From: Candidatus Acidiferrales bacterium
GTDB taxonomy: Bacteria > Acidobacteriota > Terriglobia > Acidiferrales > UBA7541
Assembly: GCA_030038275.1 (NCBI GenBank)
Contig: JASHPG010000240.1
Coordinates: 1 to 48,478, forward strand
Reading direction: 5' to 3'
Length of the DNA stretch: 48,478 nt
Below, one piece after another: positions 35,985-48,393 of this stretch (the first letter of the stretch is position 1; every line of letters starts with the position of its first letter). A model generated the notes under the pieces. That model saw nothing but the letters and a program-made list of their open reading frames with translations, ran no database searches and was not told the origin of the DNA. A program made the position numbers and the translations under genes.

Positions 35985-36060
35985 GGGCGGTTAGCTCAGC
36001 GGTTAGAGCATCCGGTTTACACCCGGAAGGTCCTCCGTTCGAATCGGAGATCGCCCACCA
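35985..36060 (+). tRNA. tRNA-Val (TAC)
   Basis: 76 bases with encoded CCA. The acceptor stem GGGCGGT/ATCGCCC has one G-U pair. The anticodon arm is TCCGG-TTTACAC-CCGGA with anticodon TAC at 36018-36020. The T arm contains GTTCGAATC. The extended -10 TGCTACGAT at 35967-35975 would start the transcript about three bases before the mature 5' end. Confidence 0.96.
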
Positions 36061-36082: not shown

Positions 36083-36159
36083 GGGGACGTAGTTCAGTTG
36101 GTTAGAACGCTGCCCTGTCACGGCAGAGGTCGCGGGTTCGAGTCCCGTCGTCCCCGCCA
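36083..36159 (+). tRNA. tRNA-Asp (GTC)
   Basis: 77 bases with encoded CCA. The acceptor stem is GGGGACG/CGTCCCC with discriminator G. The anticodon arm is CTGCC-CTGTCAC-GGCAG with GTC at 36117-36119. GGTTCGAGTCC is the T arm. It is 22 bases after tRNA-Val, so both are probably cut from one transcript. Confidence 0.96.
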
Positions 36160-36376: not shown

Positions 36377-37207
36377 ATGCAGTCGCTGCTGGAAGTCCAC
36401 AACCTTACGGTTCGCTATCGGACGGCCTCCGGTGATGCGGCGCCTTCCGTCGACGGCGTCTCGTTTTCAATCGCGCCGGGCGAAACGCTGGGATTGATGG
36501 GCGAATCGGGCTGCGGCAAAAGCAGCATCGCGCTGGCCCTACTGGGACTTTTGCCGACGAAGCAGGCGCAAGTTACAGGCTCGATCTGTTTTCGCGAGTG
36601 CAACCTGCTCGGGCTCCGCGAGCGTGAGCTGCAAAAAATTCGCGGCGCTGCAATCTCCTTGATTTACCAAGAACCGGAAATCGCGTTGAGTCCGGTGATG
36701 CGCGTGGGAGCGCAAGTGGCCGAAGTGATTCGCGCTCACGCCCGCGACTCCTGGAGCCAGTGCCGCTCCGGCGCGCGTGCCATGCTGGCGCGCGTGGGCT
36801 TCGCGCAGGTGGACCGCATCTACAACGCGTATCCGCACCAACTGAGCGGCGGCCAGCGACAACGTATCGTGCTTGCGCAAGCTCTTGCTTGCGAGCCTTC
36901 CCTTCTGATCGCCGACGAGCCGACGGCACATCTAGATCTTCGCAGCCAGGGCGAATTTCTCGGATTGCTCGAATGCCTCAAGCGCGACTCGGGAATTTCG
37001 ATCCTGCTGATCAGCCACACTCCTGAAATTCAAATGCGTATGTCCGATCGCCTGATGGTGATGCGAGCGGGGCGCATCGTAGAGCACGGCCGCGTCGATG
37101 AACTCGCCGGAAATTCGCGCGATCGGTACACGCGCGCAATTCTGGGTTCGCTGGCGCTTTCACGCGACTGCGCTGAGAACGAATTTGCGGAGAGTGCCGT
37201 CCGATGA
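36377..37207 (+). CDS. oligopeptide ABC transporter ATPase (DppD/OppD type)
   Basis: ATP-binding subunit of a peptide-type importer, 276 residues. Walker A GESGCGKSS, Q loop YQEPEIALSP, signature LSGGQRQR, Walker B LLIADEPTAHLD and switch His in LISHTPEI are intact. It is shorter than typical OppD/DppD (about 325), lacking most of the C-terminal extension. AGGGA lies about ten bases upstream. It overlaps the next ATPase gene as ATGA and starts a five-gene transporter operon. Confidence 0.92.
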   Translation: MQSLLEVHNLTVRYRTASGDAAPSVDGVSFSIAPGETLGLMGESGCGKSSIALALLGLLPTKQAQVTGSICFRECNLLGLRERELQKIRGAAISLIYQEPEIALSPVMRVGAQVAEVIRAHARDSWSQCRSGARAMLARVGFAQVDRIYNAYPHQLSGGQRQRIVLAQALACEPSLLIADEPTAHLDLRSQGEFLGLLECLKRDSGISILLISHTPEIQMRMSDRLMVMRAGRIVEHGRVDELAGNSRDRYTRAILGSLALSRDCAENEFAESAVR

Positions 37208-38058
37208 GCGTCTCGCGCTGCAATCCGCTTATTTCGATTCGCAACTTGGCCAAGACTTACACGCAGCGGCGCGCGATCGGCGGCGGCAGATTCGCGGTCG
37301 ACGCATTTCGCGGAGTCGATCTCGATGTCGCTGAGGGCTCCACGCTTGCTATCGTGGGGGAATCCGGCGCCGGCAAATCGACGCTCGTTCGCTGCCTTGC
37401 GCTGCTTGAGAAACCCGACGCCGGCGAAATTTTTTTCGGTGGCGCGAATTTGCTCGCGCTTGGTCGCAAGCAGCTTTTCCCAGTTCGGCGTCAAATTCAG
37501 CTGATCTTTCAGGATCCGGCGTCCGCTCTGAACCCTGGCATGTCCGCCGCGGAAATCGTCGAAGAGCCGCTCGCCATCCAGCGCGAAGGGACACCGGCGG
37601 GACGCCGCCGTCGCGCGATTGAGCTGCTGGAACAAGTGGGGCTGTCCGCTGGCTCTGCGGGGAAACGTCCACTGGACTTCAGCGGCGGCCAGCGCCAGCG
37701 CCTCGCCATTGCGCGCGCCCTCGCGCTGCGGCCGAAGCTCCTGATTTTCGACGAAGCGCTTTCAAGTCTCGATCTTGCCACGCGCGATTCCATTGTTGCG
37801 CTTTTGGATCGGCTGCGCGCCGAGTACGGCCTCACGTTCGTTCACGTCCTACACGATCTGCGACTAGCGTCTGAAATTGCCACTGACGCCGCGGTGCTGT
37901 TCGAGGGACGAATCGTCGAGCGCGCGCCGGCCGCGCAAATGTTTGCGCGCCCGGAACACCCCTATACGCGGTCGCTGCTGAGCGCGCTTAAATCGCTGCG
38001 ACCAGCCCGCGAAGGTTCGCGCGTGGAGTCAGCTGAACTCGTCGAGGCACTGCCATGA
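37204..38058 (+). CDS. oligopeptide ABC transporter ATPase (DppF/OppF type)
   Basis: Second ATP-binding subunit, 284 residues. Walker A GESGAGKST, FQDPASALNPGMSA, signature FSGGQRQR, Walker B LLIFDEALSSLD and switch His in HVLHDLRL. The C-terminal REGRIVE-type segment (FEGRIVERAP) and HPYTRSLLSA are the peptide/nickel family signature. It is coupled by 4-base overlaps on both sides. Confidence 0.93.
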   Translation: MSVSRCNPLISIRNLAKTYTQRRAIGGGRFAVDAFRGVDLDVAEGSTLAIVGESGAGKSTLVRCLALLEKPDAGEIFFGGANLLALGRKQLFPVRRQIQLIFQDPASALNPGMSAAEIVEEPLAIQREGTPAGRRRRAIELLEQVGLSAGSAGKRPLDFSGGQRQRLAIARALALRPKLLIFDEALSSLDLATRDSIVALLDRLRAEYGLTFVHVLHDLRLASEIATDAAVLFEGRIVERAPAAQMFARPEHPYTRSLLSALKSLRPAREGSRVESAELVEALP

Positions 38059-39017
38059 AATTCCTCGCCCGGCGTCTTCTTTATTCGCTGGCAATTTTGC
38101 TCGCCATCTCATTTCTGTCATTTCTAATGCTGCAATGGGCCCCGGGCGATTATTTCGAGGCGATGCGCATGAATCCGCGTGTCTCCGCGCAAACGGTGGA
38201 AGTGCTGCGCGCTCAATACGGCGCAAATCGCACCTTTGCCGCCCGTTATGTGACTTGGATGGGCTCGCTCGCGCGCGGTGACCTGGGTGTGTCGTTCGCC
38301 TACGGAACGCCCGTTGGTCCGCTGCTCTGGCCGCGGGCACGTAACACTCTTCTGCTCACCGGCTCATCCATGATCCTTTCCTGGCTGATGGCTGTTCCGC
38401 TGGGCATCTGGTCCGCCGCTCGTAAAGGCGCGCTGCTTGACCGCTTCTTCTCATTCGCCACTTCGACCGTGCTCGCGGTTCCCGACCTGCTGCTGTTTCT
38501 TCTGTTGCTTCTGCTAGCGGTACGCACCGGCTGGTTTCCAGCGGGCGGCATGGTCTCCTCCAATTTTGACGATCTCTCCTTCTGGCAAAAAGCTGGCGAC
38601 GTCGCGATTCATTTCGCCTTGCCTGCCCTTGGCTTGGCTGTGGTGGCGCTGCCCTTGCTGCTTCGCCACGTCCGAGCCGCGATGATCGAGGTTCTCAACG
38701 CGCCCTTCATCCGCGCCGCGCGCGGGCATGGCATCCCACCGTGGCGCCTGCTTTGGCGCTACGCCCTGCCAGCCGCGTCGAATCCGTTGATCTCGCTCCT
38801 TGGACTCTCCATCGCCACCATGCTGAGCGCGTCGTTGATTGTCGAAGTGATTCTCAGTTGGCCGGGACTCGGCCCGCTGATGATTCAGGCGATCCTGGCT
38901 CGCGACGTGAACGTCGTCATCGGAGTGGTCATGCTTTCGTCCGTCTTCTTGCTCGCCGGGAATCTGATCGCAGACGTTCTGCTGTTCGCCAGCGATCCAC
39001 GGATTCGGGTGGAGTGA
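38055..39017 (+). CDS. oligopeptide ABC transporter permease (DppB type)
   Basis: Permease of 320 residues with about six transmembrane segments. The N-terminal FLARRLLYSLAILLAISFLSF and the loop WAPGDYF..RAQYG are the DppB pattern. The coupling motif is in FIRAARGHGIPPWRLLWRYALP. It forms the channel with the next gene product. Confidence 0.93.
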   Translation: MKFLARRLLYSLAILLAISFLSFLMLQWAPGDYFEAMRMNPRVSAQTVEVLRAQYGANRTFAARYVTWMGSLARGDLGVSFAYGTPVGPLLWPRARNTLLLTGSSMILSWLMAVPLGIWSAARKGALLDRFFSFATSTVLAVPDLLLFLLLLLLAVRTGWFPAGGMVSSNFDDLSFWQKAGDVAIHFALPALGLAVVALPLLLRHVRAAMIEVLNAPFIRAARGHGIPPWRLLWRYALPAASNPLISLLGLSIATMLSASLIVEVILSWPGLGPLMIQAILARDVNVVIGVVMLSSVFLLAGNLIADVLLFASDPRIRVE

Positions 39018-39019
39018 CG

Positions 39020-40051
39020 ATGAAGGGCAGCCGTACATTCTGGACCGTCTTAATCCTTCTGGCGGCTTTCCATGCGGTGGTGCTATTCGCGGGGTTTTTC
39101 GCGCCCTATGGCTATTCGCGGCAAAATCGCGATTTCCCATATGCGCCTCCGACGCGCATCCATTTCGTCGATTCGCACGGGCATTTTCACCTTCGGCCGT
39201 TTATTTACGGCTGGCAAGCTTCTTCCGATTCGTACGGGGCTTACGCCGTGGACAGCAGCGAGACGTATCCCATCCACTTCTTCGTGGGGGGGGCTCGCTA
39301 CGAAATTGCCGGCCTCATCCCGTCGCGCACTCATCTCTTCGGCGTCACGGCTCCCGGCCAAATTTCCCTGATGGGCACGGACGGCTATGGCCGCGACCAG
39401 TTCAGCCGCTTCCTGTACGGCGGCCAAATTTCGCTCGCCGCCGGTCTGATCGCCGCGGCGCTATCGCTGCTCCTAGGACTTGCCATCGGCTCGCTTGCGG
39501 GCTTCTACGGCGGCTGGCTCGATAACGCCCTGATGCGTGGCGGCGACCTCTTCATGGCGCTGCCTTGGCTCTATCTGCTGTTTGCCGTCCGCGCTGCAAT
39601 GCCGCTGCACATCGCCCAAGGACAAGTCTTTCTTCTCATCGTCGTGGTGATCGGATTGATCGGCTGGGCGCGTCCAGCCCGCCTGATTCGCGGGGTCGTG
39701 CTGAGCGCCAAGGAGCGCAATTTCGTTATTGCCGCGCGCGGTTTCGGCGCGTCCGACTTTTACCTGCTCCGCCGCCATATTCTCCCGCACACCTACAGCA
39801 TTCTTCTTACGCAGATGACGCTGCTCATCCCTCAATACATCCTCGCGGAAGTGACGCTTAGCTTCCTTGGCCTCGGCATCGGCCAACCGCTTCCAAGCTG
39901 GGGCAGCCTCTTGTCCGGCCTGCAGCAATATTACGTCCTCGCCTCCTACTGGTGGATGTTCCTGCCCGCAATCATTCTCATACCGGTGTTCCTCGGCTAT
40001 TCCCGGATCGCCGATGCATTGCAGGAACGCTTTGCCGTTGTTCCGCTATAA
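39020..40051 (+). CDS. oligopeptide ABC transporter permease (DppC type)
   Basis: Permease of 343 residues from the ATG two bases after dppB; the open frame extends upstream inside dppB but that part is not coding here. The first transmembrane segment (8-30) is followed by an unusually long extracytoplasmic stretch (about 31-125). Then come GTDGYGRDQFSRFLYG and five transmembrane segments with the coupling motif KERNFVIAARGFGASDFYLLRRHILP. The long loop may contact the binding protein. Confidence 0.93.
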   Translation: MKGSRTFWTVLILLAAFHAVVLFAGFFAPYGYSRQNRDFPYAPPTRIHFVDSHGHFHLRPFIYGWQASSDSYGAYAVDSSETYPIHFFVGGARYEIAGLIPSRTHLFGVTAPGQISLMGTDGYGRDQFSRFLYGGQISLAAGLIAAALSLLLGLAIGSLAGFYGGWLDNALMRGGDLFMALPWLYLLFAVRAAMPLHIAQGQVFLLIVVVIGLIGWARPARLIRGVVLSAKERNFVIAARGFGASDFYLLRRHILPHTYSILLTQMTLLIPQYILAEVTLSFLGLGIGQPLPSWGSLLSGLQQYYVLASYWWMFLPAIILIPVFLGYSRIADALQERFAVVPL

Positions 40052-40081
40052 ATCGACGCTCCTCTCTGCAAGAATTTCCTT

Positions 40082-41815
40082 ATGCGCCTGAGCCGCCTCT
40101 CTGGAAGCATTGTGGCCGCCTGCCTGCTTTTCGCGGCAATCGCTGCGGCCACACTCGCGCAATCGGCCGGCAAAGCCACTCCCAATGAGCTCGGCACTCC
40201 TGGAGGCACTCTCACCATCGCTCTCCGCTCCGAGCCTAAAACTCTCAATCCCGCGTTCGCCGCTGATCAGTCTTCGCAGGACGTGATCTACTGCATGAAC
40301 GCGGACCTGATCCACATCAATCGCGAGTCCCAGCGCACCGAGCCAGACCTCGCCGAATCCTGGACCGTTTCGCGCGACGGAAAGATCTACACGCTGCATC
40401 TTCGCCGCGGCGTTCGCTTCTCCGATGGCCAGCCTTTTACGGCAGACGACGTTATCTTCAGTTTTCGCGTGTATCTCGATGCGAAAATCGATTCGCCGCA
40501 GCGCGACCTCCTGATTATCGGCGGCAAGCCGATTTCAGTGGAAAAGATCGACGCCTACACCGTGCGCTTCATCCTGCCGCAGCGGTATGCCGCGGCCGAG
40601 CGCCTTTTCGATGGTTTCCCGATTCTTCCGCGCCACCTGCTTCAGAACGCCTACGCCGAAAGCAGTTTTTCGAAAGCCTGGGCCGTCTCCGCCTCGCCTA
40701 GCCAATTCGCCGGTCTTGGCCCCTTTCGCCTTGCCGAATACGTTCCCGGCCAACGCATCGTGCTGGAGCGCAATCCGTATTACTGGAAGCGCGATGCTGC
40801 TGGAAAGCAGCTTCCCTATCTCGACAAACTCGTCTTTCTCTTCGTCCCGAGCGAAGACGCCCAGGTGATTCGCTTTCTCTCCGGCGATACGGACGTCCTC
40901 GATCGCTTCAGCTCTGAAAACTATTCCGTACTCAAGGCGCGCGAATCCGCGAAGCGGTTCCACATGGACGATCTCGGCGCAAGCCTCGAATACAACTTTC
41001 TCTTTTTCAATCTCAATGACCTCGCCGGCAAGAATCTGCCGCAAATTGCCGCGAAGCAGGCTTGGTTCGCCGATGTGCGTTTCCGACAAGCTGTTTCCTC
41101 CGCCATCGACCGCGCCGCCATCGTTCGCCTGGTCTATCAGGGCCGCGCCAGCGCACTCGCCGCGCAAGTCACGCCCGGAAACAAACTCTGGCTCGATCCG
41201 GCAATCAAGCCCGCGAGCCACTCCGTCCAGCACGCGCGCGATCTGCTGAAAGCCGCTGGATTTTCCTGGCGCGCGGACGGCTCTCTGGTTGATCGAGGCG
41301 GCGGACCAGTGGAGTTTTCGATTCTCACCAGTTCCTCGAACGCCCAGCGCGCGAAAATCGCGACCCTAATCCAAAGCGACCTCAGCGCGCTCGGTATGAA
41401 CGTTCATGTCGTCACGCTCGATTTCAGCGCCATGGCCGATCGTTTGCTGAACTCCTTTGATTACGAAGCCGCCATCATGGGCCTGGCTGACGGCGATGCC
41501 GACCCCAACACGGAAATGAATATCTGGCCGTCAAGCGGCGGCATGCACATCTGGCATTTGAACGAACAGCGCGCCGTCACGCCATGGGAGGCCGAACTGG
41601 ACCGGCTTATGAACCAGCAGCTCGTCACGCTCGATTATCCCAAGCGGCGCCAGTTGTACGACCGGGTCCAGCAGATTGTGGCCAACCAACTTCCAATCAT
41701 CTGCCTTGCGAGTCCCGATGTTCTCGTTGCCGCGAAGGATCGCGTTGGAAACTTCAGCCCCGCGATCCTCGAACCCTACGTTCTCTGGAATGTGGACCGC
41801 CTCTATGTCCGCTGA
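40082..41815 (+). CDS. extracellular peptide-binding protein (SBP family 5)
   Basis: Periplasmic solute-binding protein of 577 residues. A signal peptide spans about residues 1-27 (IVAACLLFAAIAAATLAQSA) with no lipobox. The family 5 core GGTLTIALRSEPKTLNP, LAESWTVSRDGKIYTLHLRRGVRFSDGQPFTADDVIFSF and FRQAVSSAIDR is clear. It should deliver peptides (or nickel/glycoside-type ligands; family specificity is broad) to the permeases encoded just upstream. Its last 11 bases overlap the sigma-factor gene, linking transport to the regulatory cluster. Confidence 0.93.
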   Translation: MRLSRLSGSIVAACLLFAAIAAATLAQSAGKATPNELGTPGGTLTIALRSEPKTLNPAFAADQSSQDVIYCMNADLIHINRESQRTEPDLAESWTVSRDGKIYTLHLRRGVRFSDGQPFTADDVIFSFRVYLDAKIDSPQRDLLIIGGKPISVEKIDAYTVRFILPQRYAAAERLFDGFPILPRHLLQNAYAESSFSKAWAVSASPSQFAGLGPFRLAEYVPGQRIVLERNPYYWKRDAAGKQLPYLDKLVFLFVPSEDAQVIRFLSGDTDVLDRFSSENYSVLKARESAKRFHMDDLGASLEYNFLFFNLNDLAGKNLPQIAAKQAWFADVRFRQAVSSAIDRAAIVRLVYQGRASALAAQVTPGNKLWLDPAIKPASHSVQHARDLLKAAGFSWRADGSLVDRGGGPVEFSILTSSSNAQRAKIATLIQSDLSALGMNVHVVTLDFSAMADRLLNSFDYEAAIMGLADGDADPNTEMNIWPSSGGMHIWHLNEQRAVTPWEAELDRLMNQQLVTLDYPKRRQLYDRVQQIVANQLPIICLASPDVLVAAKDRVGNFSPAILEPYVLWNVDRLYVR

Positions 41816-42401
41816 CACAACCACCGCACTGGCCGAGCCGAACGCGGCGCCGGTGCGCGACGACGCGGCGCTCGTTCGCGAGTGCCTGAGCGGCAGCGAG
41901 TCCGCCTGGTCCGCGTTGATCGACAAATACAAAAACCTCATCTATTCGATTCCCATCAAGTACGGTCTCTCGCCCGACGACGCTAGCGACATTTTTCAAG
42001 CCGTCTGCCTGGAAATGCTTGCGGAGCTTCCCAAGCTGCGCAAACCGAAGGCGCTGCCGAAGTGGATCATCCAGATCGCCGTTCACAGATGTTTTCATCA
42101 CAAGCGGCAGCTCCAGCGTGTTTCCACCGCCGGTACCGCTGAGGATTTTCCCGAGCAGAGCACGTCTCCGGCCGCCGAAAACATCCTGCGTGAAGCGGAA
42201 CAGGAACAGGGATTCCGCGATGCGATCGCGAGCCTGCCGCCGCGCTGCCGCCAGCTCGTCCACATGCTGTTTTTCGAGGAGCCGGCGCGTCCTTATCAGG
42301 AAATCGCTTCCCAGCTCGGCCTCGCGCCAGGCTCCATCGGCTTCATTCGGCAGCGCTGCCTGGATAAGCTGCGCGACAAGCTGGAGCAGGCGGGTTTCTA
42401 G
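41805..42401 (+). CDS. ECF-type RNA polymerase sigma factor
   Basis: Sigma-70-family factor of 198 residues with region 2 (about 20-95: VRECLSGSESAWSALIDKYKNL, DDASDIFQAVCLEML, KPKALPKWIIQIAVHRC) and region 4 (about 135-195: SLPPRCRQLVHMLFF, PYQEIASQLGLAPGSIGFIRQRCLDKL). No region 3 is present, as in ECF factors. The chosen ATG at 41805 lies inside the end of the binding-protein gene; an earlier in-frame ATG at 41676 would add a tail lying wholly in that gene. Its stop overlaps the CHAT gene start (TAGTG). The Zn-finger protein at 45399 is the likely anti-sigma. Confidence 0.9.
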   Translation: MSADTTTALAEPNAAPVRDDAALVRECLSGSESAWSALIDKYKNLIYSIPIKYGLSPDDASDIFQAVCLEMLAELPKLRKPKALPKWIIQIAVHRCFHHKRQLQRVSTAGTAEDFPEQSTSPAAENILREAEQEQGFRDAIASLPPRCRQLVHMLFFEEPARPYQEIASQLGLAPGSIGFIRQRCLDKLRDKLEQAGF

Positions 42402-45271
42402 TGCGCGCCGCCGTTAAAAAAAAGGCCCCCGTCTCCGCTGCGATTGTTCGCAAGCTCGGATCTCTGGCGGACGACGCCAGCCGTCAACAATTTCTGAAAA
42501 CCCGCCCGGACCTCTTTCGAAAAGCCGTCGCTCTTCATTTGAATGACGTGGTGCGCGCGCAACTCCGCGCGGATACCCAACAGGCGCTTTCCCTCGCTGA
42601 AGCCGCCGTCGCCATCTCTCGCCGGGTACGCAGCCAGGAAACCCTGGCCCTTTGCTTGCGCTCGAAGGCCAACGCCCTCTATATGCTCGGGGAAAACAAG
42701 GCGGCCCTCGAGTTTCATGCCGAAGCACTCGGCGTATTTCGGCAGATCGGCGACGCCCGGGAACAGGCGCGCACGCTTATCCCCACGATCCAGCCCTTGA
42801 TCCTGCTCGGCGAATATCAGCGCGCGTTCGATACCGCCGCTGAGGCAAAAACCATTCTGGAACGAATTGGCGACGCACAACGCCTCGGTCACCTGGAAAT
42901 CAACGTCGGAAACATATTCCACCGCCAGGACCGCTTCGAAGAGGCGCTGGCCTGCTACCAGCGCGCCTATGAGTCCCTGTTGCAGTTTCGGGATTCGGAG
43001 GGCCTTGCCGTGGCGCTCTACAATATGGCCGTCTGCCTGATCTCGTTGAACGACTTTCCTCGCGCCCTCGCTTCGTATCAGCGCGCCCGCGACATGTGCG
43101 TGCAGCGCGGAATGACGCTTCTCGTCACTCAAGCTGACTACAACATCGCCTATCTCTATTACCTACGCGGCGAGTACAGCCGCGCGATCGAGATGCTCCG
43201 CGCCACGCGCGAGACTTCCGAGCAAAATGGCGATGCCCACATCCTCGCGCTTTGCTATCTGGACCTCTCGGACATCTATATCGAGCTGAATCTCAGCGCC
43301 GAGGCTCGCGAGGTGGCGCACGAAGGATGGGAACGCTTCCGCAAGCTCGGCATGGGCTATGAAGAAGCCAAATGCCAGGCCAATGAAGCCTTGGCGCTAA
43401 GCCAGACCGGCAAAGCCATTCATGCGCTCGAATTGTTCGACCGCGCGCGCGCTAAATTCGTCCAGGAAAACAATCTCGTTTGGCCCTGGCTGATCGATCT
43501 CTATCGGGCGCTCGTCCTTTTCAACGAAGGCCGCTATTTTGAGTCGCGCCGCTTCTGCGAGCAGGCCGCCAAATTCTTCGACTCCTCGTTTCTGCCCAAC
43601 AAAGCGGTTTTGTGCCACCTCCTTCTCGCGCGCCTCTCATTTCGCACAGGAGATCTCCCGGCGGCGAACGTCGAATGCGGCCGCGCCCTCGATTATCTCT
43701 GCTCCGTGGAGGCGCCATCGCCGCGCTTCCAGGCTGAGTTCCTTTCAGGTCAGATAGCCGAAGCCTCCGGAGCGCTCGACGAGGCTTATCGAAATTTTCA
43801 GCGCGCGCGAGAAGCGCTCGAAACCCTGCGCGGCGGCGTGCATGGCGACGATCTAAAAATCTCGTTCATGAAGAATCGCCTGGAAGTTTACGAATGCCTG
43901 GTGGACATTTGCACGCGGCAACGCCGGGGACGCGACGCCGCCGAAGAATCCTTCGGCTACATGGAAATGGCCAAATCCCGCAGCCTGGCCGAACTCCTCG
44001 TTCATCACGCGCAGACTTTGCCCGACGCGCCAAGCGGCCAGAGCGGACTGGTCCGCAAAATTCGCGAAATGCGCGAGGAATTGAACTGGTATTACCGCCG
44101 CATCGAGATCGAGCAACTGCAAACCGGGACTCCCTCGCCCGACCGTATCGAACAGCTGCGCCAAAAAGCCGCGGCGCACGAGAGCAATCTTCTCCGCGCC
44201 CTTCGCGAACTGCCGAAGTCCCAAAACGCCGGCGCCGACGTCGCTCCCGAATCCGTTGACGAAATTCGCGCGTCGCTGCCCGCGGACGCGGCCACGGTCG
44301 AGTACTTCAACGTCAAGGGACAATTCGTCGCCGCCGTTCTCACGCGCCGTTCGCTCGAAATCGTCCCGCTCACTCCCGCTTCACGGGTCATCAGCCTGAT
44401 GCGCATGCTCGAATTTCAGATTTCCAAGTTCCGGCTTGGCGCCGACTACACCCGGCAATTCCATGAGCCGCTATTGGAAGCGTCCAAGGCGCACCTCAGG
44501 AATTTGTACGCCGAAGTCTTTGCGCCACTGCGCTCGCACATCTCCGCCGCGCATCTTGTGATCGTTCCGCACGGCGTCCTGCACTACTTGCCCTTCCACG
44601 CGCTTCTCGATGGCGACCGCTATTTAATCGACGATTTCTCCGTGTCGTATGCGCCCAGCGCCACAACCTTCGCTCTCTGTCAGAAAAGTTCCAGCCACTC
44701 GGAAGGCCCGCCGCTGGTGATGGGCATCCCCGACGATCGAGCTCCGTTTATCCTCGACGAAGTGCAAGCCGTCTCCAAGGTCTTGCCCGGCGCCACTCTG
44801 CTGATCGGATCCGAAGCCAACGATGCGAATCTGCGCGAGAAAGGTCTCCATAGCCGGGTGGTTCACATTGCTACGCACGGCTCGTTTCGCCGCGACAATC
44901 CAATGTTTTCCAGCATCCGCCTCGGCAACGGAAATCTCGCCCTCTACGATCTCTATCATCTGAGATTTGATTGCGAGTTGATTGCTTTGAGCGGTTGCGC
45001 CACTGGCCTCAACGTCGTTACTGCCGGCGACGAATTGCTCGGACTCGTCCGCGGCCTCCTCTTCGCCGGTGCCCGTTCGCTCCTGCTCTCGCTATGGGAC
45101 GTGCACGATCAGACCACCGCCGAGTTCATGACCTCGTTCTACGAACGCCTGGAATGCTCCCGTTCCAAAGCGGAGGCCTTGCGGAGTACCATGCTGGCCA
45201 TGCGGGGGCGCTATCCTCATCCCTACTATTGGGCTCCGTTTACCCTCACCGGCAAGATTTCCACCCGCTAA
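42401..45271 (+). CDS. TPR-CHAT caspase-like protease
   Basis: Protein of 956 residues with GTG start. The N-terminal two thirds (about 50-500) is a TPR array (ALYMLGENKAALEFHAEALGVF, LEINVGNIFHRQDRFEEALACYQRA, LYNMAVCLISLNDFPRALASYQRA, and others). A coiled coil (about 555-600) follows, then a C-terminal CHAT domain (about 660-950). The clan CD dyad is His826 in HIATHGSF and Cys866 in ALSGCATG, so it should be an active cysteine protease. TPRs would bind a trigger or substrate. TPR-CHAT is the architecture of the protease partner in type III-E CRISPR systems, where it releases a sigma regulator; no Cas gene is present here. Translation is coupled to the sigma factor by a 1-base overlap. Confidence 0.92.
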   Translation: MRAAVKKKAPVSAAIVRKLGSLADDASRQQFLKTRPDLFRKAVALHLNDVVRAQLRADTQQALSLAEAAVAISRRVRSQETLALCLRSKANALYMLGENKAALEFHAEALGVFRQIGDAREQARTLIPTIQPLILLGEYQRAFDTAAEAKTILERIGDAQRLGHLEINVGNIFHRQDRFEEALACYQRAYESLLQFRDSEGLAVALYNMAVCLISLNDFPRALASYQRARDMCVQRGMTLLVTQADYNIAYLYYLRGEYSRAIEMLRATRETSEQNGDAHILALCYLDLSDIYIELNLSAEAREVAHEGWERFRKLGMGYEEAKCQANEALALSQTGKAIHALELFDRARAKFVQENNLVWPWLIDLYRALVLFNEGRYFESRRFCEQAAKFFDSSFLPNKAVLCHLLLARLSFRTGDLPAANVECGRALDYLCSVEAPSPRFQAEFLSGQIAEASGALDEAYRNFQRAREALETLRGGVHGDDLKISFMKNRLEVYECLVDICTRQRRGRDAAEESFGYMEMAKSRSLAELLVHHAQTLPDAPSGQSGLVRKIREMREELNWYYRRIEIEQLQTGTPSPDRIEQLRQKAAAHESNLLRALRELPKSQNAGADVAPESVDEIRASLPADAATVEYFNVKGQFVAAVLTRRSLEIVPLTPASRVISLMRMLEFQISKFRLGADYTRQFHEPLLEASKAHLRNLYAEVFAPLRSHISAAHLVIVPHGVLHYLPFHALLDGDRYLIDDFSVSYAPSATTFALCQKSSSHSEGPPLVMGIPDDRAPFILDEVQAVSKVLPGATLLIGSEANDANLREKGLHSRVVHIATHGSFRRDNPMFSSIRLGNGNLALYDLYHLRFDCELIALSGCATGLNVVTAGDELLGLVRGLLFAGARSLLLSLWDVHDQTTAEFMTSFYERLECSRSKAEALRSTMLAMRGRYPHPYYWAPFTLTGKISTR

Positions 45272-45356
45272 CCAACCCTAAAAATACTTGCGGCAGCCTA
45301 TATTTTTCGGGGCCCTCGCTACCCTTATTGTCAGGCATGGATAATCGGTGCATTCC

Positions 45357-45375
45357 CAGCCCTTGGGAAGGGCTG
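45357..45375 (+). promoter_or_regulatory. hairpin in the leader of the anti-sigma-like gene
   Basis: Perfect 8-bp stem CAGCCCTT/AAGGGCTG with a 3-base loop, 13 bases before the AAGG ribosome site of the gene at 45399. No T-tract follows, so it is not a terminator. It could protect the 5' end or control translation. The 127-base gap also holds GATAAT (45340-45345) as a possible -10. Confidence 0.4.
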
Positions 45376-45398
45376 CGATCTGAATAAAAGGATGGGGG

Positions 45399-46091
45399 AT
45401 GAGAATGGGACATTTTTCGTCAGAGCAGTGGACCGATTTCGTTAGAAAGACGCTGAAGACAAAGGACATGCTTGAAATGCAGTCGCACCTCGAAACCGGC
45501 TGCCAGCAGTGCAAAAGCGATTACGCCGTCTGGAACCGCGTTACCAACGTGGCGTCCCGCGAACGCGGCTTCGAGCCGTCAGTATCCGCCGTAAAGATGG
45601 CCAAAGCCGCGATGGCGCTCCACGGGCGCCCGTCACGGATTCCCATCGCGAAGCTGCTCTTCGACAGCTTGAGCGCCCCGGCCCTCGCCGGTGTCCGCTC
45701 TTCGTCGGGTGCCGCTCACCAGATGCTCTACGGTTTCGACGATTACCGCGTCGATCTCCGCTTCGAGCCCAACTTGGATTCCGAACAGGCGCTGCTCGTC
45801 GGCCAAGTGCTGCACCCGAGCGCCGGTCAGGCCCTGGGGAAGATCGCCGTTTCCGTGATACGTGGCGGCCAGACTCTTGGCGCGGCCGAAACGAACGAAT
45901 TTGGCGAATTCCAGTTGGAATGCGATCTGGGCAGCCGCATTGAGTTGCAGCTCACCCTGCCCGACGGCGCGCTGGTGCGAGTACCAATGATTGAACCCAT
46001 CGCCACCGCCGCAGGCCCGCAATCGGTTGGCAATAAAAAGGTTACGCCAAGGCGGAAGATGCCTGGGAGAAGTACTAGGAAGAAGGTCTAG
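45399..46091 (+). CDS. putative zinc-finger anti-sigma factor with beta-sandwich domain
   Basis: Protein of 230 residues. The N-terminal domain (about 1-55) has HFSSEQWTDFVRKTL and His30-x4-Cys35-x2-Cys38 in SHLETGCQQC, with His5 upstream. This is close to the ZAS anti-sigma zinc motif (normally Hx3Cx2C). A linker with LLFDSLSAPALAGVRSSSG (about 85-107) joins it to a beta-rich C-terminal domain (about 115-200; LLVGQVLHPSAG, VSVIRGGQTLGAAETNEFGEFQLEC) like carboxypeptidase-regulatory sandwiches. The tail is very basic. No transmembrane segment is evident, so it is probably a soluble anti-sigma for the factor at 41805. AAGG lies seven bases before the ATG; an ATG at 45405 is also possible. Confidence 0.72.
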   Translation: MRMGHFSSEQWTDFVRKTLKTKDMLEMQSHLETGCQQCKSDYAVWNRVTNVASRERGFEPSVSAVKMAKAAMALHGRPSRIPIAKLLFDSLSAPALAGVRSSSGAAHQMLYGFDDYRVDLRFEPNLDSEQALLVGQVLHPSAGQALGKIAVSVIRGGQTLGAAETNEFGEFQLECDLGSRIELQLTLPDGALVRVPMIEPIATAAGPQSVGNKKVTPRRKMPGRSTRKKV

Positions 46092-46108
46092 TTCCAAGGG
46101 AGCTAAAA

Positions 46109-47623
46109 ATGTCCGTCCGTACCATAGAGCGAATCAGTCCCAAAGCCGAATCTGTCACTTCGTTAATACCCGCTGCTCGAAAGGATCGATCCGCCCTTAT
46201 GAAACGACTCGGCTGCCTCGTTGTTCTGCTTTCGATGTCTGCGGTATTCGGCGCTCGTCCCGCGCAAGCCCAAGGCCTCCTGGGCGGGTTGCTCGGGGGC
46301 GTCACCCAAACGCTTTCGAACACGGTGAACGGCGTCACGAACCTCGTCGGTGGGCTGCTCAGCCCTCCGCAGACAGTCATCGTGCGCACGAACCTCGGTC
46401 TCAAGGGGCTGCAAAATACCTGCGTGCAGAACGGCTGCACTGTGGTGCGAAATCTGGATGGCGCGGAAGGCCAGGTTTACCTGGTCCAGCCGCAGCAGGG
46501 ACTCTTGCCTGACATTCTTGCCGGCGTCTTGCGCCTGGTGACCGGCATCGTCGATGCCGAGCCGGACCAGCTCGTTATCATTCCGCCGAACACGAGTTCC
46601 GGAGCGGCCCAGACGACGATTCCGTCCTATCTCTACAATCAGACGCCGGTGAATTATTTCGGCAGCACCGTATGGAATGGCTACGTCACTCAGCCGGCGG
46701 CATCGATTATCCAGGTCGGACCGGCGCAAAGCGCGTTCCACGTTACCGGCTCCGCGATCGTTGCTGACATCGACACGGGAGTTGACCCCAATCATCCAGC
46801 GCTGAAGCCATTCCTGCTCCAGGGGTACGATTTCACGCGCAACCAGCCTGGTGCTTCGGAACTCACCGATCTGAATGGCGCAACCGGCGAGGGTTGCAGT
46901 TCGTGCCAACCGGCATTCGTGGATCAGCACACAGCAGCCATGCTCGATCAGCACACCGCCGCTATGCTTGACCAGCACACTGCCGCCATGCTCGATGGTT
47001 CACCATACTCCGATTTTGGCCACGGCACGGAAGTGCTCGGCATGGTCCACTTGGTTGCTCCGACGGCGCGCCTGCTGCCGCTCAAAGCGTTCAATGCAGA
47101 TGGCAGCGGCGATCTATCGAATATCCTGGCGGCGATCTATTACGCCGTTCAGAATCACGCCAACGTAATCAACATGAGCTTCGAGCTGTCTTCCAGCTCG
47201 ACCGAGCTGGCCGATGCGATCAATTACGCCAACGCGAACTCCGTGATTTGCGTCGCATCCGCCGGCAATGATGGCCAGGACGAGATGGTTTATCCCGCTG
47301 GACTGCCGGGCGTCATGGGAGTCGCCTCCACGAATGACTTCGATCAACGCTCAACGTGGTCCAACTACGGCGATCAGGTTGTCTGGGTCGCGGCGCCGGG
47401 CGAAAACATCGTCACCACCTATCCCTTCTCAACGTACTCGGTGACTTCGGGTACGTCGTTCACTTCACCGATGGTGGCCGGGACCGCTGCTCTCCTGCTC
47501 AATCTTCAGTCCAACCTCAGCCCGTCCGCTGTTGCGCAAGCGATTTCCAACGCGCAGTGGATTGGGCCCAACATGGGCTACGGAGAACTGAACGTTTTCT
47601 GGGCGTTAGCGTCGCTGCGGTAA
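46109..47623 (+). CDS. secreted subtilisin-like serine protease
   Basis: S8 peptidase, 504 residues. A hydrophobic signal segment runs about 33-52 (LGCLVVLLSMSAVFGARPAQA). It is followed by a Gly/Leu-rich stretch (GLLGGLLGG), a possible propeptide (about 90-175) and the catalytic domain. The triad is Asp222 (DIDTGVD), His305 (FGHGTE) and Ser450 (GTSFTSP), with the oxyanion Asn in SAGNDG. Asp and His are 83 residues apart, far more than in subtilisin; the extra loop has CSSC and three copies of DQHTAAML (272-295). The ATG at 46109 has a good ribosome site (AAGGGAG); an ATG at 46199 would give a conventional signal peptide. The gene lies 17 bases after the anti-sigma-like gene. Confidence 0.92.
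   Translation: MSVRTIERISPKAESVTSLIPAARKDRSALMKRLGCLVVLLSMSAVFGARPAQAQGLLGGLLGGVTQTLSNTVNGVTNLVGGLLSPPQTVIVRTNLGLKGLQNTCVQNGCTVVRNLDGAEGQVYLVQPQQGLLPDILAGVLRLVTGIVDAEPDQLVIIPPNTSSGAAQTTIPSYLYNQTPVNYFGSTVWNGYVTQPAASIIQVGPAQSAFHVTGSAIVADIDTGVDPNHPALKPFLLQGYDFTRNQPGASELTDLNGATGEGCSSCQPAFVDQHTAAMLDQHTAAMLDQHTAAMLDGSPYSDFGHGTEVLGMVHLVAPTARLLPLKAFNADGSGDLSNILAAIYYAVQNHANVINMSFELSSSSTELADAINYANANSVICVASAGNDGQDEMVYPAGLPGVMGVASTNDFDQRSTWSNYGDQVVWVAAPGENIVTTYPFSTYSVTSGTSFTSPMVAGTAALLLNLQSNLSPSAVAQAISNAQWIGPNMGYGELNVFWALASLR
46922..46993 (+). repeat. three 24-base codon repeats in subtilase gene
   Basis: Three tandem units each encode DQHTAAML. All base differences among the copies are synonymous (for example ACA/ACC/ACT for Thr, GCA/GCC and GCC/GCT for Ala). 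Confidence 0.95.
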
Positions 47624-47631
47624 AACTGAAA

Positions 47632-48393
47632 ATGAGCGCGATGCCGCACATTACGGAGATGGATTTCGGGCTGGCGCCTCACGGCGGGCTGGTGCTGCCG
47701 TTTAATTCGCCACCCCTTGGCCGGAGGTCGCAGCCCGAATCCTCTGCCAGTTCCAGCGGCGCCGCGCTCGAAATCAAAGCGGTGCAGGAGGAAATCTCGG
47801 CCCTTCGCAGCGCCGTCGTATGTTCGCTGAACCAATTGCTCGATCTAAAGGACCTCAATACAGGCGTTCACAGCACGCGGCTCGCGGAATGGGCTCTCCA
47901 CGTGGCTGGAGAGATTGGCCTCGACGAAGCTTCCTTCCCCGATATCGAAGTCGCCGCGCTGCTTCACGACATCGGCAAAGTCGGCATTCCCGACGCCATC
48001 CTCAACAAGACCGGCCGCCTGACCGATGAAGAATACGAGCTGATGAAGAAACATCCCGAATACGGCTGGATCGTGCTGCGGCGCATGCCGGGATTCGAGC
48101 GCGTCAGCCTGCTGATCCTTCACCACCACGAAAGCTTCGACGGCAAGGGCTATCCTGGCGGACTGGCGGGCGAGGAAATTCCCATCGGTTCGCGTATCGT
48201 TTCCGTGATCGACGCCTTCGACGCCATGGTTTCCTCGCGCCCCTACCGGCAGGGACTCCCGCTCGAGGAAGCCGCCCGCCGCTTGATTCAAGCGAGCGGC
48301 ACTCAGTTCGATCCCCGCGTCGTCGAGCGTTTCCTGCCACTCGCTCAAGCCGAATTGCCGTCGGTGCTTGCCGCCGTCGGTGCATCCGCCTAA
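47632..48393 (+). CDS. HD-GYP cyclic-di-GMP phosphodiesterase
   Basis: Protein of 253 residues from the ATG nine bases after the subtilase stop; the frame extends further upstream but inside that gene. A disordered N-terminus and short helix (about 40-65) precede an HD-GYP domain. LLHDIGKVGIPDAIL carries His112-Asp113. HHHESFDGKGYPGGLAGEEIPIGSRIVSVIDAFDAM gives the metal-binding His residues and the GYP motif. No receiver or other sensor domain is attached. It should hydrolyse c-di-GMP in the cytoplasm. It is last in the array, with no strong ribosome site, so it may be translated by coupling with the protease gene. The last 85 bases of the window show no feature. Confidence 0.9.
   Translation: MSAMPHITEMDFGLAPHGGLVLPFNSPPLGRRSQPESSASSSGAALEIKAVQEEISALRSAVVCSLNQLLDLKDLNTGVHSTRLAEWALHVAGEIGLDEASFPDIEVAALLHDIGKVGIPDAILNKTGRLTDEEYELMKKHPEYGWIVLRRMPGFERVSLLILHHHESFDGKGYPGGLAGEEIPIGSRIVSVIDAFDAMVSSRPYRQGLPLEEAARRLIQASGTQFDPRVVERFLPLAQAELPSVLAAVGASA

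Follow-up and report, generated by a model that had tools for sequence, protein, structure and literature searches.

Does the array of genes at one end of an acidobacterial contig form a single regulatory switch, and if so, what sets it off? The contig (JASHPG010000240.1, from a Candidatus Acidiferrales bacterium; 48,478 nucleotides, all of which we call the window) is one stretch of a 4.07 Mb assembly in 240 contigs. It carries a sigma factor of the extracytoplasmic function (ECF) type, a soluble protease that joins tetratricopeptide repeats (TPR) to a CHAT domain, a zinc-finger protein, a secreted subtilase and an HD-GYP protein, preceded by an oligopeptide importer of the Opp type. It is very likely that the sigma factor, the zinc-finger anti-sigma factor and the CHAT protease are one autoregulated unit. 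The fuller reading, that of an autoregulated ECF switch under proteolytic control which is linked to the uptake of peptides and the breakdown of protein outside the cell, is slightly favored by the evidence. The observations behind both are the gene content, its conservation and linkage, the homology of the anti-sigma factor, the intact active sites, and a promoter-like element that is shared among these loci and specific to them.

We searched 299 genomes of the class with the zinc-finger protein and found it in 78; most of the loci examined have the CHAT gene upstream and the subtilase gene downstream. To keep the query from choosing the answer, we also anchored the comparison on the sigma factor alone, which gave 79 acidobacterial loci, and counted each neighbor only where the contig was long enough. 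CHAT accompanies 61 of 63 sigma genes, the zinc-finger protein 61 of 62 and the subtilase 54 of 58, followed by OppA (64 of 72) and HD-GYP (43 of 56). The importer genes lie 5′ of the sigma gene in relatives. Across the phylum, the core genes are linked in at least four gene orders, including SIG-ZAS-CHAT-SUB, CHAT-SUB-SIG-ZAS and CHAT-ZAS-SUB-SIG in other classes (SIG, sigma factor; ZAS, zinc-finger anti-sigma factor; SUB, subtilase), where the genes flanking the core are unrelated enzymes. Of the genomic evidence for a common function, this linkage despite rearrangement is the strongest. Of 13 genomes from outside the class, 6 have OppA close to the sigma gene, in the same or the opposite orientation, even though most of these genomes carry only 2-4 SBP_bac_5 genes. 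The preliminary description, made from the window, had proposed a search of acidobacterial genomes for a conserved neighborhood; that search now gives a co-occurrence which is near complete in the sigma-anchored loci and survives the shuffling of gene order. Unrelated genes lying together by chance or mere chromosomal proximity might have been suspected from a single-window view. Together with the promoter element described below, the co-occurrence and the shuffled orders refute that explanation, and its probability is negligible.

In the one actinobacterial CHAT locus that was found (L203), no such cassette was present. A plasmid search for CHAT relatives returned cyanobacterial and proteobacterial CHAT proteins, and the Nonomuraea and Azospirillum loci had no such cassette. 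One contig labelled Betaproteobacteria (L129) carries the cassette at acidobacterial-level identity together with the promoter element and is probably mislabelled or from a mixed bin.

The promoter-like element, TATATTTTT-N14-CCCTTAT, lies in the gap between the CHAT and anti-sigma genes and is conserved across the class at about 70 bp before the anti-sigma start. The exact pattern TTTTT-N15-CCTT is common to 44 of 74 gaps, against a maximum of 5 in shuffles. A softened matrix at 18 bits or more found 97 matches in the loci, against zero when the sequence was reversed, and at a looser threshold 117 of 153 matches stood directly before the anti-sigma gene; these matrix counts include repeats, as some loci are represented twice. 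Among the 299 genomes, 31 of the 78 with the anti-sigma gene contain the exact pattern, versus 3 of the 221 without it (Fisher p=1.3e-17, which is optimistic because related genomes are not independent). A search at the family level found the pattern in 26 of 89 genomes and the reversed pattern in none. Strong matches also head the Opp operon in L109, L119, L122, L126 and L132, independently of the training set. Where the distance was read, about 0.9 kb separates this upstream copy from the first ATPase gene, and the gene of a 145-aa secreted protein lies between them; in L208, from a genome of another family, it is 0.55 kb before the ATPase gene. The upstream regions of the sigma gene in other classes (22 sequences) gave no promoter motif above shuffles.

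Self-regulated sigma operons are common among ECF factors, so we regard the element as a candidate target of the cassette sigma factor and as its putative own promoter. Rfam matched only two tRNA genes in the region, which lie just 5′ of the Opp cassette (35985-36057 and 36083-36156), and the element therefore corresponds to no known RNA. Secreted proteins of unknown family stand behind the element in several places (L175:568-1002, 145 aa; L183:1028-1927, 300 aa; G158:C57; G289:C414), and the 145-aa protein also has a homologue close by in G158 and G289. These proteins are candidate regulon members or peptide precursors.

The sigma factor has regions 2 and 4 and lacks region 3, the hallmark of the ECF type, and its profile matches the SigH, SigW and RpoE structures. 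Searched alone, the zinc-finger protein matched nothing in Pfam or NCBIfam. A profile built from 56 homologues matched RsiW (E=4e-5), DdvA (0.0017) and RslA (0.005), the H..C..C motif being in register in these alignments, and none of these 56 aligned homologues has a transmembrane-like stretch. By homology the protein is thus a soluble anti-sigma factor, which bears out the assignment made in the preliminary description, and its partner is presumably the cassette sigma factor. The window protein and its close kin carry the motif as H-x4-C-x2-C (residues 30-38), while distant homologues have the canonical H-x3-C-x2-C, the zinc signature used in PMC7406223; the ligands are retained in 104 of 111 homologues. 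The AlphaFold2 model (predicted local distance difference test, pLDDT, 86) has four N-terminal helices, the motif lying where helices 2 and 3 meet, and a C-terminal immunoglobulin-like beta-sandwich that is joined to them by a linker of lower confidence. Arg100, identical in all 111 homologues, is in a moderate-confidence loop between the first two strands.

Several variants of this protein were found. In L080:7561-10965 and L081:8330-9145, the beta-sandwich with its FDSF..P..G.R loop is part of a fusion with a receiver-like domain and sometimes occurs in tandem. In three loci from two genomes (L189, L190 and L202), the protein encoded after the element still has the loop and the beta-sandwich, but its zinc-finger helices are lost or degraded, with CHAT directly upstream in L189 and L190; this suggests a decayed or re-purposed anti-sigma factor. 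Four genomes (G418, G170, G094 and G058) hold 4-7 copies each of the family or its C-terminal part, which points to circuits that run in parallel.

The catalytic dyad of the CHAT protease (H826/C866) is invariant in 97 of 97 aligned homologues, and so is D903 in the stretch LWDVHD. In a Foldseek search, the AlphaFold2 model (pLDDT 90) was most similar to Csx29 (4e-18), separase (6e-18) and DdvA (5e-12). The LWDV-D stretch of the cassette family corresponds to MWKVRS in Csx29. Separase holds its P1 arginine via an acidic residue in the region equivalent to LWDVHD. A basic P1 residue for the cassette protease is a guess consistent with Arg100 as the cut site, and we offer it as a lead only. Whether CHAT cuts the anti-sigma factor at all is, in our estimate, evenly poised. 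Two apparent fusions of CHAT with the anti-sigma factor were rejected: the 1276-aa frame in L054 crosses a run of Ns between two genes, and the one in L055 is an overlapping frame.

CHAT could instead be a scaffold, or cut another target such as the released sigma factor or a toxin-like target, with the anti-sigma factor released by redox chemistry at the zinc site. Soluble zinc anti-sigma factors are often redox-responsive (PMC8999054, PMC7406223), their ligands are widely retained in this family, and the cleavage by CHAT is so far what we infer. A zinc site alone would not need CHAT, however, let alone an invariant dyad beside 61 of 63 sigma genes, and the occurrence of both the canonical motif and the one-residue-longer motif suggests a structural zinc. 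We therefore consider this explanation unlikely.

The cassette has ten genes on the plus strand (Table 1), the OppDFBCA importer (36377-41815) being followed by the sigma, CHAT, anti-sigma, subtilase and HD-GYP genes. The Opp genes mostly overlap by 4 bp, the 3′ end of OppA overlaps the sigma gene by 11 bp, and the sigma and CHAT genes overlap by 1 base. Later gaps are 127 bases between CHAT and the anti-sigma gene, then 17 and 8 bases, with the HD-GYP ATG at 47632. Because the genes from OppD to CHAT are packed so tightly, a single transcript is the natural reading, and the Opp genes are probably co-transcribed with the regulators. The five genes from the sigma factor onward, their order, the overlap and these gaps are all present as the preliminary description gave them. 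Its array of 41805-48393 starts too late, since the unit begins with Opp at 36377; the description had overlooked the importer, whose linkage extends across the phylum, as well as the promoter element that these loci have in common.

Table 1. Genes and promoter-like element of the cassette, with positions in the window.
Feature	Position	Strand	Match or remark
OppD-type ABC ATPase	36377..37207	+	ABC_tran E=5e-26; first cassette gene; 4-bp overlap with the OppF gene
OppF-type ABC ATPase	37204..38058	+	ABC_tran 5e-31 and oligo_HPY
OppB-type permease	38055..39017	+	BPD_transp_1 2e-33
OppC-type permease	39014..40051	+	BPD_transp_1 4e-22, OppC_N 1e-4
OppA-type oligopeptide-binding protein	40082..41815	+	SBP_bac_5 1.4e-86
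ECF sigma factor	41805..42401	+	Sigma70_r2 1e-9, r4 1e-6; TIGR02937 2e-22
Soluble TPR-CHAT protease	42401..45271	+	CHAT E=3e-62; about 12 TPR
Promoter-like element TATATTTTT-N14-CCCTTAT	45299..45328	+	about 70 bp upstream of the anti-sigma start
Soluble zinc-finger anti-sigma factor	45399..46091	+	profile matches to RsiW, DdvA, RslA
Secreted subtilase (S8)	46109..47623	+	Peptidase_S8 6e-36
HD-GYP phosphodiesterase-type protein	47632..48393	+	HD_5/HD-GYP 3e-43; last gene

The subtilase triad (D222/H305/S450) is conserved in at least 99 of 103 homologues; for this enzyme and for the CHAT dyad, the intact active sites noted in the preliminary description were correct. The likely true start of the subtilase is Met31 (46199), with a signal peptide; the hydrophobic N-terminus is at residues 29-47. 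The proposal that a secreted protease is an output of the sigma factor is plausible, as the promoter-like element precedes the anti-sigma/subtilase operon. The subtilase gene also contains an in-frame 24-bp tandem repeat (46922-46996), which places three copies of HTAAMLDQ between the catalytic Asp and His; relatives have one or two copies.

The switch may work as follows. At rest, the N-terminal helices of the soluble zinc-finger protein would keep the ECF sigma factor bound. A trigger would then act on the cytosolic TPR-CHAT protease, and CHAT would cleave the anti-sigma factor, plausibly in or next to the Arg100 loop between the anti-sigma helices and the beta-sandwich body, releasing the sigma factor. 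From the element, the freed sigma factor would transcribe the anti-sigma/subtilase/HD-GYP operon; in relatives it would also transcribe the Opp-sigma-CHAT operon. The predicted outcome is a rise in the secreted protease, the importer and the sigma factor itself, a positive loop, while fresh anti-sigma factor would serve as the brake and reset the switch.

For the trigger, the most economical candidate is a peptide imported by Opp and held by the TPR superhelix, because the importer shares an operon with the TPR protease and a secreted protease is its partner; we put this forward only tentatively. The TPR half has three conserved asparagines, Asn168 (99%), Asn208 (94%) and Asn248 (88%), at a spacing of exactly 40, and its profile is similar to LGN/Pins, kinesin light chain and the Rap peptide receptors, among other TPR proteins. 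The asparagines and the TPR similarity fit the binding of an extended peptide. The cassette could then be a peptide-sensing circuit of Gram-negative soil bacteria, in which peptides made by the subtilase enter through Opp, reach TPR-CHAT and lead to the destruction of the anti-sigma factor in a self-amplifying manner. The peptides may come from environmental protein or from a dedicated secreted precursor. We see this complete circuit as possible rather than probable.

The same sigma/anti-sigma/CHAT switch could also have Opp and the subtilase as pure outputs, that is, a nutrient-scavenging regulon for extracellular protein, with the TPR domain sensing something else, such as misfolded protein, a small molecule or a partner protein. 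The element heads both the Opp and subtilase operons, as outputs should have it, the 145-aa secreted protein is also behind the element, and several loci lack Opp. On the other hand, the importer genes share the operon of sigma and CHAT, 5′ of both, and do not occur only in an output operon, and the importer stays near sigma and CHAT in several rearranged loci. This alternative has a real but minor share of the probability.

Several points weigh against the proteolytic switch coupled to peptide uptake. Opp genes are absent from the neighborhood of some loci (L053, L063, L071 and others), so that the importer may be one of the outputs and not the route to the sensor, and the genome of the window has the element once, as the internal copy, with none at the Opp head. 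A conserved small propeptide gene was not found: none was seen in the window, and what stands behind the element in several relatives is the 145-aa secreted protein. The likeness of the TPR half to peptide receptors is generic. For the anti-sigma factor, Foldseek with the model recovered the beta-sandwich only and not anti-sigma folds. The fusions of receiver-like domain and beta-sandwich directly precede a subtilase, without sigma or CHAT nearby, and keep the Arg100 loop; Arg100 may therefore be structural and not the cut site. Inter-protein mutual information for the sigma/anti-sigma and CHAT/anti-sigma pairs (90 triples, effective number 58) gave no clear domain preference. The basis of the model is computational throughout, and the binding, the recognition of the element, the cut by CHAT, its site and the peptide trigger are all steps that we infer.

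The proposed switch would work much like Craspase, in which Csx29 cuts Csx30, an inhibitor of CASP-sigma (PMC10028731). Common to both are a TPR-CHAT protease, a protein that inhibits an ECF sigma factor (a predicted role in the cassette) and, as we propose for the cassette, proteolytic sigma release, and Csx29 is the best fold match of the cassette protease. However, that protease scores 45.1 bits on the Csx29 model against a cut-off of 300 and does not belong to the Csx29 family. Its inhibitor is a zinc anti-sigma factor with a beta-sandwich that is not assigned to Csx30, and its companions are Opp, S8 and HD-GYP proteins. No Cas7-11, CRISPR RNA or CRISPR genes are among the annotated cassette neighbors, in agreement with the earlier proposal of a switch without CRISPR. 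The source genome has two Cas1 genes elsewhere (C192:3472-4332 and C89:16385-16999).

Another of the closest known systems is DdvS/DdvA of Myxococcus xanthus (8rot, 8rw5, 8rlz), with an ECF sigma factor under the control of DdvA, whose N-terminal domain matches the cassette anti-sigma profile and which also contains CHAT. DdvA is one transmembrane chain, whereas the cassette has two separate soluble proteins plus the importer and the subtilase. By analogy, the DdvA fusion is a strong precedent that an anti-sigma factor and CHAT belong together. The actinobacterial ECF54 group has a context of CHAT, subtilase and a carboxypeptidase-type protein, for which proteolytic control was proposed, and was described without an anti-sigma factor (PMC8999054). 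The cassette resembles it by gene context alone (subtilase and CHAT) and differs in having an identified anti-sigma factor. The ECF54 carboxypeptidase may be a beta-sandwich like that of the cassette anti-sigma factor, so that an anti-sigma factor may have been overlooked there; this is a guess. With these ECF54 contexts known and the structure of the DdvA anti-sigma/CHAT fusion solved (8rot), to call the circuit not yet described, as the preliminary description did, was an overstatement.

CalpL/CalpT/CalpS has the same cytosolic three-part logic of protease, anti-sigma factor and ECF sigma factor (PMC11417357), but CalpL is a SAVED-Lon protease activated by cyclic tetra-adenylate (cA4) in the CRISPR response, while the cassette protease is TPR-CHAT. 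Such likenesses raise the idea of an antiviral or cell-suicide circuit after Craspase or CalpL/T/S, with the secreted protease or the HD-GYP protein as effector. The CHAT protein is structurally nearest to Csx29, the protease, anti-sigma and sigma logic is that of CalpL/T/S, and DdvS/DdvA is probably the pair, left unnamed in PMC8156234, that is said there to drive a type III-B CRISPR system in Myxococcus. Yet the window has no CRISPR genes, Cas1 being on other contigs only, and PADLOC recognised no defence system. The neighbors are nutrient-type importer genes, and the order of the cassette is kept across a family, unlike that of defence islands. A role in defence is thus quite improbable.

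Like the cassette, the RRNPP(A) systems of Bacillota have a secreted protease, uptake through Opp and a TPR protein in the cytosol, which serves as their receptor (PMC11343458, PMC3601992). Their receptors are DNA-binding or phosphatase-type regulators with a dedicated propeptide gene, whereas the cassette TPR is fused to CHAT.

New here are the identification of the anti-sigma factor, the Opp linkage, the phylum-wide conservation in shuffled orders and the promoter element. The cassette names the anti-sigma factor said to be missing from ECF54-type contexts and supplies a concrete promoter sequence. It provides a counterpart of the Craspase sigma switch that works without CRISPR and can be put to the test, and it links CHAT proteases with the import of peptides. 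For many CHAT proteins of bacteria, no trigger or substrate is known; the cassette offers a candidate for the substrate (the anti-sigma factor), the readout (the element) and the trigger (an imported peptide). If true, the peptide circuit would follow the logic of RRNPP signaling with irreversible proteolysis as its output, and it would be a counterpart of Craspase, without CRISPR, that is spread across the phylum.

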